A stretch of 46,191 nucleotides of DNA from Bacteriovorax sp. BSW11_IV (lineage in GTDB: Bacteria > Bdellovibrionota > Bacteriovoracia > Bacteriovoracales > Bacteriovoracaceae), in contig NZ_AUNE01000059.1 in assembly GCF_000447755.1 (NCBI RefSeq), positions 1 through 46,191 on the forward strand. Direction: 5' to 3'. The notes under the pieces were generated by a model, which was not told where the DNA came from, made no database searches, and was given only the letters and a program-made list of their open reading frames with translations. Every line of letters begins with the position of its first letter. Position 1 is the stretch's first letter. Positions 28,695 through 29,986 of the stretch are shown here, piece by piece. Both the position numbers and the translations under genes were made by a program.

Positions 28695-28797
28695 GGGGCA
28701 GCCGATCCATACAACACAATACCTCTACGGCTACCGTTGCTTCGTTCCCGACCTGGCGGAGTTCACCAAGAAAATACTCGCTGTAGGATCGACTACC
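28695..28797 (-). ncRNA. ffs: Signal recognition particle RNA (4.5S/small SRP RNA)
   Basis: This RNA, with Ffh, targets nascent membrane proteins. The minus strand carries the conserved apical core: GGTGAACTCCGCCAGGTCGG, then GAACGAAGCAACGGTAGC, with the GGAA-type tetraloop region as GGGAACGAAGCAACGG. The two ends form a continuous 12-bp helix (28786-28797 with 28697-28708), giving a ~103-nt small bacterial SRP RNA hairpin without an Alu domain. A near-consensus promoter ends 7 nt before the 5' end. There is no U-tract at the 3' side, so the end is probably formed by processing, or transcription reads on into dnaX. An adjacent ffs-dnaX pair is known in other bacteria. Confidence 0.93.
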
Positions 28798-28862: not shown

Positions 28863-29558
28863 CTATTTTCTAATAGTGGCCCTTGATTTCTCTGGCTGAC
28901 TATCAAAAGTTGGAATTTCTTTTACTGTGTCTCTACTTTTATCATTTATATCAAATCGTGTTGGCTCAGAATAATGATCTTTAGAGTCTTCAATATTCAT
29001 GGGAACAACAACAACTATTTTCTTATCAATATATACATAGTTTTCAGGAAGGTTAGGAATACCTGGATACTGAGCAATGAAGCCAAGATATTTTTTCTTA
29101 TCAACAAAAACAACTTCCTGCCCGTCGATCATGACATGATTTGCTGGTTGGTTCGCAATACCTGGATAGAAACTTGGATTCGTATTTATCTCGCTGGCCT
29201 TGAGTACAACAACATCCTTTCCTTCTATAAAAAGATGATTCTCTTTTTTGCCAGCAATTCCGGCGCTCTTTTTTAAATAGCTATCATATTCTGAGTCCGG
29301 AACAATCAAATAAGGATAGGCGATGACCTCATCTTTTTCATTCATAAAAATGTGGTTCGCTGGCCTAGTTGCAATTCCAATTTGTGTTGATAAAAATTTA
29401 TCGTATTTATGAAAGGGGACAATCACTGATGTTTTATTATCGATGTACAGATACTCGGCAGGTTTATCATTTAATCCACCATACTTCTTCTGCAACAACT
29501 GCGCATTTGCATTCATTGATAAAATCAAAGCTACTAATACAAATTTGGATACTTTCAT
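28863..29558 (-). CDS. Secreted protein made of five ~35-residue repeats
   Basis: The family is unknown. The start ATG at 29558 has GGGAG upstream and gives 231 residues with a clean signal peptide (MKVSKFVLVALILSMNANA). The mature part is almost entirely five repeats with the core pattern G-[IL]-x2-x-P-A-[NE]-[HY]-x-[FYM]-[IM]-[DNE]-x-K-x-x-V-[IV]-V. The first three cores are GLNDKPAEYLYIDNK, GIATRPANHIFMNEK and GIAGKKENHLFIEGK; the others are GIANQPANHVMIDGQ and GIPNLPENYVYIDKK. Each unit is probably a beta-hairpin, ending in Tyr-Pro or similar. The C-terminal ~30 residues are charged. The product is likely periplasmic or surface-exposed. It sits alone between the tRNA-Ser array and the SRP RNA. 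Confidence 0.8.
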   Translation of the reverse strand: MKVSKFVLVALILSMNANAQLLQKKYGGLNDKPAEYLYIDNKTSVIVPFHKYDKFLSTQIGIATRPANHIFMNEKDEVIAYPYLIVPDSEYDSYLKKSAGIAGKKENHLFIEGKDVVVLKASEINTNPSFYPGIANQPANHVMIDGQEVVFVDKKKYLGFIAQYPGIPNLPENYVYIDKKIVVVVPMNIEDSKDHYSEPTRFDINDKSRDTVKEIPTFDSQPEKSRATIRK

Positions 29559-29633
29559 GGTCTCTCCCTCTTTCACGTATCGGAGTAGACTTCTTTTTTT
29601 AAAATATTTTTATTTAAAAGTGCTTTAGCTTTA

Positions 29634-29911
29634 CTGAAAACAGGCAATTGGCCAAGCGTCAGCACTGGCGTATCATATTGAAGAAGAAAAGTGCAGATAG
29701 AGCAATGGCGGAGAACACTGAAAGCGAGAGCTTTCAGCAAGATTAGCCAAACGTCAGTGCTGGCGTATCAATTTGAAGTGGATGATATGAACAATTATAA
29801 AATGGCGGAGAACACTGAAAGCGCGAGCTTTCAGCTAGATTAGCCAAACGTCAGTGCCGGCGTATCATATTGAAGAAGAAAAGTGCAAATAAAGGAATGG
29901 CGGAGAACAAG
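29634..29911 (-). repeat. Tandem ~96-bp repeats copying the 3' end of tRNA-Ser
   Basis: Downstream of tRNA-Ser on the minus strand, the tRNA 3' end TGTTCTCCGCCATT recurs twice more, with CCA ends at 29803-29805 and 29706-29708 (periods of 95 and 97 bp). Each unit then has a variable ~30-bp part and a conserved ~30-bp part (around GATACGCC and CTGACG, and the imperfect palindrome CGTCAG..CTGGCG). It ends in a perfect 8-bp hairpin CTGAAAGC-NCNC-GCTTTCAG just before the next tRNA tail. The last unit is degenerate at its end. The first and third variable parts resemble each other more than the second. This fills the ~320-nt stretch lacking protein genes. Confidence 0.85.
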
Positions 29912-29986
29912 GGATTCGAACCCTCGATACGTTGCCGTATACACGCTTTCCAAGCGTGCGCCTTCGACCACTCGGCCAATTCTCCG
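29898..29986 (-). tRNA. tRNA-Ser (GGA anticodon)
   Basis: An 89-nt tRNA with encoded CCA. The acceptor stem is CGGAGAA/TTCTCCG, the D-arm contains GGCCGAGTGGTCGAAGGC, the anticodon loop TTGGAAA (anticodon GGA) is on a CACGC/GCGTG stem, a long class-II variable arm is present, and the T-loop is TTCGAAT. It decodes UCC/UCU. Its 3' end is copied in the tandem array that follows. Confidence 0.97.

Follow-up and report, generated by a model that had tools for sequence, protein, structure and literature searches.

How does a tRNA gene come to be followed by short tandem repeats that each end in a copy of that gene's own 3' end? This question is raised by a locus of Bacteriovorax sp. BSW11_IV, located in the 46,191-nucleotide stretch of contig NZ_AUNE01000059.1 that we analysed as a whole (hereafter the window). 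To our knowledge, the question of the origin of tRNA-tailed repeats had rested on the single tyrT locus of E. coli, and the part of the literature on tRNA-associated repeats in Bacteriovorax, Bdellovibrio and bacteria in general that our search covered held nothing relevant.

On its minus strand, the window carries in this order a tadA-like deaminase gene, a tRNA-Ser(GGA) gene, the repeat units (29632-29895), an ORF of 237 amino acids, the SRP RNA gene (28698-28793), dnaX, an ORF labelled YbaB-like from a reading of its sequence with no search behind the label, and recR. The tRNA is followed by 2.6 tandem units, the first two measuring 95 and 97 bp. The order within a unit is a variable part (V) of 29-31 nt directly after a tail, a conserved block (C1) that opens with GATACGCCRGCACTGACGTTTGGCTAATC, a hairpin with an 8-bp stem (H), and then a 14-bp tail, TGTTCTCCGCCATT, which corresponds to the 3' end of tRNA-Ser plus two bases. 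This 14-bp sequence is found three times with spacings of 95 and 97 bp, and units 1 and 2 each close with CTGAAAGC-NNNN-GCTTTCAG, an 8-bp stem with a 4-nt loop, immediately before the next tail. The V parts of units 1 and 3 share 90% identity, as against 59% for units 1 and 2 and 56% for units 2 and 3. The preliminary description of this DNA had reported the tail-bearing repeats and their periods, the hairpin just before the next tail and the likeness of the first and third V parts, unit 2 being different, and our mapping bears out all three statements. In unit 3, V and C1 are followed by a broken hairpin reduced to its right arm (TTTTCAGTA, 29632-29640), and there is no tail. The array is therefore made of two complete units and one decayed unit, with the following features:

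29898-29985, minus strand: tRNA-Ser, anticodon GGA, host gene with the copied 3' end (ARAGORN; Rfam RF00005, 53.8 bits)
29896-29909, minus strand: original tRNA tail TGTTCTCCGCCATT, comprising the acceptor 3' strand, the discriminator, CCA and TT
29867-29895, minus strand: unit 1 V (tRNA trailer)
29835-29866, minus strand: unit 1 C1, GATACGCCGGCACTGACGTTTGGCTAATCTAG, an imperfect hairpin whose apex is the counterpart of the relatives' GGCGCTAACGCTT
29815-29834, minus strand: unit 1 hairpin H, 8-bp stem, loop TCGC
29801-29814, minus strand: tail copy 1, an exact copy of the tRNA 3' end plus 2 bases
29770-29800, minus strand: unit 2 V, differing from the V parts of units 1 and 3
29738-29769, minus strand: unit 2 C1, 0 mismatches to the family pattern
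29718-29737, minus strand: unit 2 hairpin H, loop TCTC
29704-29717, minus strand: tail copy 2
29675-29703, minus strand: unit 3 V, 90% identical to unit 1 V
29647-29674, minus strand: unit 3 C1, diverged, 1 mismatch to the family pattern
29632-29646, minus strand: unit 3 decayed hairpin remnant, ending in TTTTCAGTA, with no tail after it

The ORF beside the array (28863-29576, minus strand) contains repeated motifs of the kind PGIxNxPxNHVxID and gave no Pfam match.

The layout had been likened to the E. coli tyrT locus, and the likeness held when the tyrV/tyrT region of MG1655 was re-examined: it holds three 178-bp units, and every one of them terminates in 19 bp that repeat the tRNA-Tyr 3' end exactly (AATCCTTCCCCCACCACCA). 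At both loci, tandem units stand directly 3' of a tRNA and are closed by copies of its 3' end that include CCA, with hairpins before the tail. Each E. coli unit contains an inverted piece of the T-arm region (GGGGAAGGAT), a direct piece (AAGGTTCGA), the hairpins and the tail, and this order is also that of the units with a second core (C2) found behind tRNA-Arg and tRNA-Met of relatives, namely GCAGGATTCG (inverted), GGTTCG (direct), H and tail. The E. coli unit measures 178 bp against 95-180 bp in the family, and its tail 19 bp against 10-26 bp. The E. coli region read differs in that it has tRNA-Tyr only, with no counterpart of a common core with a swapped tail. A covariance search with the model of RtT RNA (RF00391; rttR, tpr) gave three matches of 134-138 bits on the E. 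coli control, one per repeat, and no match at the window locus or the other arrays tested. Membership of the RtT family was thus rejected, and the sequence comparison points to a common layout without supporting homology.

The preliminary description had treated the repeats as a feature of one tRNA, and had proposed looking for them beside others. We observed the same core beside different tRNAs, with the tail swapped each time. In relatives (numbered G001 onwards, the window genome being G000), H was detected behind tRNA-Ser (G001, G080, G083, G084 and G096), tRNA-Gly (G012) and tRNA-Val (G098), and also behind tRNA-Arg(TCT) (G016, G081 and G082) and tRNA-Met (G086). It sits 60-90 bp 3' of these various tRNAs, and the tail of that same tRNA follows every time. 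C1 and H occur together behind tRNA-Ser in four genera and behind the tRNA-Gly of G012 and the tRNA-Val of G098; C2 is associated with the same H behind tRNA-Arg(TCT) and initiator tRNA-Met, where the units also carry their own tails. C1 of window unit 1 is 81% identical to that of the Gly and Val units, whereas similarity between the tails, which agree with their respective tRNAs, is no more than 57%. A common core combined with tails that belong to the host tRNAs gives the strongest argument for different histories of the two parts. Between different loci or species, V identity is 36-71%.

In the window genome itself, two of 29 tRNAs have a downstream copy of their own tail, tRNA-Ser and the initiator tRNA-Met, whose 3' flank closes with CAGAAAGCTCTCGCTTTCAGTA, then CTCCCGCAACCA. 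Dispersed copies of the Ser unit sought in this genome amounted to short chance matches, except for H with the own tail at tRNA-Met. A scan of 84,980 genomes with the H pattern gave 11 matches. Seven were in Bacteriovoracaceae or close MAGs, six of them adjoining tRNA 3' sequence; the four outside the family have no tRNA and do not exceed chance expectation. Apart from these four chance-level matches in the scan, H is restricted to Bacteriovoracaceae.

Own-tail copies were also counted irrespective of the core. Within 500 bp, copies of at least 10 bp were found downstream of 21 of the 160 tRNAs of five family genomes and upstream of 1, with about 1.5 expected from foreign tails, which excludes chance. 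By genome, these are 2/29 (G000), 8/35 (G001, where two matches are one T-loop-like match and are to be discounted), 4/31 (G012), 5/32 (G096) and 2/33 (G086). Over 270 tRNA flanks, an exact copy of at least 10 bp of the last 30 nt occurred within 700 bp downstream in 31 and upstream in 2, and foreign tails gave 1.2%. A sample of other families of the phylum had an own-tail copy downstream at 2 of 45 tRNAs and upstream at 1. Since the species are related, these counts are not independent events; the genomes are mostly draft or metagenome assemblies, and the pattern nonetheless recurs in many independent assemblies. Inverted copies of at least 10 bp were present at 12 of the 270 tRNAs, and inverted tRNA 3'-end copies of 12-18 bp lie 50-100 bp downstream at loci L143 (tRNA-Arg of G084), L150 and L235.

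Further arrays were found in G001 (tRNA-Pro(TGG) with three 150-bp units, Arg(TCG) and Glu), G012 (Leu(CAA) and Met, two units each) and G096 (Pro with two units, and Leu(TAA)). In the tRNA-Met array of G034 the tails start in the T-loop, and an array also occurs on a Phe tRNA. Several arrays have in common a first hairpin with apex GGCGCTAACGCTT, whose window counterpart is GGCACTGACGTTTGG. The 12-mer GCGCTAACGCTT occurs 21 times in 14 genomes, against 0 for the reversed control, and all but one of its occurrences in G001, G012, G096 and G097 are 3' of a tRNA. The tRNA-tailed units are thus a family-wide phenomenon on many tRNAs and not a feature of one tRNA. Longer inserts of about 90-300 bp behind tRNAs (L026, L014, L187, L217, L218 and L258) likewise terminate in sequence copied from the 3' end of the host tRNA, and several of them carry CCCGAAGGGC or TCACGTAC..GTACGCTCC palindromes.

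What is conserved within the units was examined on 31 tail copies. The copies hardly ever depart from the host at tRNA positions 67-76 and the two bases that follow, positions 65-66 differ in 15 of 62 cases, and identity drops off from the third flanking base on. Mismatches at acceptor-strand positions 67-72 (8/186) were compared with those in CCA (5/93; p=0.77). We therefore rejected selection for pairing of the tail with the 5' acceptor strand of the tRNA, the pairing positions being no better conserved than CCA; in the absence of such a bias, the tails look like by-products of copying, and judged by its sequence the tail behaves as a duplicated piece of DNA rather than as a pairing sequence. 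The H stem is of another kind: 97% of its cells are paired, as against 17-44% when the stem is slid, a value also far above shuffles, and three of the eight pairs have changed on both sides. The stem is kept by compensatory changes. Covariation in the hairpins and a conserved copy number had both been named as signs of function; the former is present, and the latter failed, the presence of units and their copy number differing between congeners and most tRNA-Ser(GGA) loci of the family being without a unit.

We consider that the locus has about an even chance of being a small array of rtT-like, tRNA-anchored palindromic repeat units, in which a core was placed or duplicated together with a copy of the host tail, then grew in tandem and decayed. 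The trailer 3' of a tRNA gene would come to hold a clade-specific core (C1 and H), and the placing or duplication of this core would leave, beyond the hairpin, a copy of the host tRNA 3' end that runs from about position 67 to two bases past CCA. The tRNA would remain intact and a host-matched tail would close every unit. Recombination or slippage between tails would then multiply the units in tandem, and some, such as unit 3, would decay. The data establish the layout of the units, the match of tails to their hosts, the common cores beside different tRNAs, the compensatory upkeep of the stem, and tandem growth with decay. We infer that the core is mobile, that an insertion or duplication event creates the tail as a duplicate, and that the array plays no part in tRNA function. 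Since the same C1-H pair stands behind Ser, Gly and Val tRNAs, no account can do without movement of the core from one tRNA to another. For the same reason, the unequal crossing-over at the tRNA evoked in the preliminary description is insufficient as an origin when confined to a single tRNA, a core common to many tRNAs being found with swapped tails, although array growth is consistent with it.

Where the final tail gives way to an unrelated native trailer (G012 Leu, G001 Pro and G086 Met), the array is well explained by insertion in which the target 3' end is duplicated. At tRNA-Leu(CAA) of G012 a terminator comes directly after the last tail, as if two units had been set between the tRNA and its native trailer. 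The window array and the Gly array of G012 end without a tail, and such ends are as compatible with the tandem copying of an existing trailer as with insertion. No clean empty site was found in the congener pairs G000/G001, G012/G096 and G003/G092, whose flanks are too diverged. The units lack terminal inverted repeats, and where a normal transposon end would be conserved, V is not. Casposons, which use a Cas1 casposase, integrate at the extreme 3' terminus of tRNA genes and duplicate 14 bp of the target site (PMC6977970), so that such chemistry exists; they resemble the units in this respect and differ by their terminal inverted repeats and genes, of which the units have none.

Genes other than tRNA genes may also have their tails copied. 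G008 contains a related two-hairpin element behind the gene of a methyltransferase-like protein, and after the element comes a 53-bp direct copy of the 3' end of that gene (L323). Such a gene-end copy was present at one of eight dispersed elements and lacking at the seven others, and tail duplication of protein genes as a general rule was rejected accordingly. Dispersed two-hairpin intergenic repeats with apex GGCGCTAACGCTT are found in G008 and G003 (L313, L314, L319, L323, L328 and L331), several of them abutting stop codons. These related elements recall REP/BIME sequences, as do the short clade-specific palindromes, their compensatory changes and their position near gene 3' ends; REPs, however, have no copied tail of the neighbouring gene. 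RAYT-like Y1 transposases were detected in all ten genomes tested (L333-L350). Mobilisation by a REP/RAYT system was rejected since the transposase flanks read in these ten genomes carry other repeats and not the unit palindrome. Several Y1 transposases have repeats of their own on their flanks (such as GGTGCCATGCACC..), which bear no relation to the tRNA units.

Hairpin-driven slippage, which we judge unlikely, would mean that the tRNA locus has long included the trailer that carries C1 and H: a replicating strand that has passed H would re-anneal behind the similarly placed T-arm hairpin and duplicate the tail-V-core-H segment in tandem. In C1-H and C2-H units the copied segment indeed begins just after a hairpin at both sites (T-arm and H), and a TG at the joint is common to the Arg, Met and several Ser units. 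V often reappears after the distal tail (G082 Arg, G012 Gly and Met, G096 Leu), the last unit of the window lacks a tail, and V at tRNA-Ser of G003 starts like the trailer of G092, which has no unit. Slippage nevertheless gives no account of the same core and H behind Ser, Gly and Val, or behind Arg and Met, and it needs extra steps at the three arrays, G012 Leu, G001 Pro and G086 Met, where the tail precedes an unrelated native trailer or a terminator.

The units could also be attachment-site scars of tyrosine recombinases or non-autonomous mini-islands, in which tRNA 3' ends would serve as attL and attR and the integrases would act in trans, a reading we hold to be quite improbable. tRNA-targeted islands restore the tRNA 3' end on one side and carry a displaced copy on the other (Islander, PMC4383910), and the units share with them a direct repeat of the tRNA 3' end at both ends. 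The preliminary description had seen no integrase; this holds for the six genes scanned around the window locus, where none was found, and the units carry no genes, but it does not extend to relatives, at least seven of which have a tyrosine integrase directly downstream of tRNA-Ser(GGA) (PF00589; G017, G018, G023, G025, G029, G032 and G083). This tRNA is thus an integration hot spot in the family, which makes a recombinase acting in trans possible. In G083, an island of about 5 kb has the displaced tRNA fragment TCAAATCTCTTGTCCTCCGCC directly before an old V-C1-H-tail unit, although the island end is unlike H; the island region (G083:C111:56500-65500, L186) encodes the PF00589 integrase, an HTH_17 protein and a Rep_trans-like protein (sub-threshold match). 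In G096, 2.9 kb of cargo lies between two unit copies; there (G096:C21:236500-243500, L185), an identical 92-bp V-C1-H unit is present twice, with LD-carboxypeptidase and GNAT acetyltransferase genes in between. Besides the want of an integrase near the window array, the units differ from islands in being gene-free and about 85-180 bp long, and in that tails differ among units with a common core, an outcome that recombination between matching att sites at different tRNAs would not yield.

Finally, a functional RNA, whereby read-through of the tRNA gives CCA-ended units of about 96 nt or processing is regulated by competition between the tail and the acceptor strand of the tRNA, appears very improbable: the compensatory changes in H, the annotated small RNA RttR at E. 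coli tyrT and the folding of the 441-nt minus-strand stretch of tRNA and repeats, which is better than that of shuffles (z -3.0, partly owing to the tRNA itself), speak for it, whereas the variation between congeners and the many unit-less tRNA-Ser(GGA) loci, the part able to pair with the acceptor strand not being conserved in excess, and the Rfam search, which matched the tRNA only at the window locus and the other arrays tested, speak against it.

Returning to tRNA-anchored units whose core is placed or duplicated with a host tail, a wider form of this reading, which we advance tentatively and regard as rather doubtful, is that they represent an unrecognised bacterial class of tiny tRNA-3'-end elements, which would move between tRNAs and rebuild the tail at each landing, E. 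coli rtT being a relic of the same process. By analogy, the E. coli tyrT oddity looks like one case of a wider process. With about twenty loci on about fifteen tRNA genes, some of which have a common core but their own host tail, the origin of such repeats becomes answerable by comparative strain sequencing and simple genetics. The arrays also suggest a process, small in scale and different from ordinary genomic islands, by which tRNA 3' ends become duplicated.
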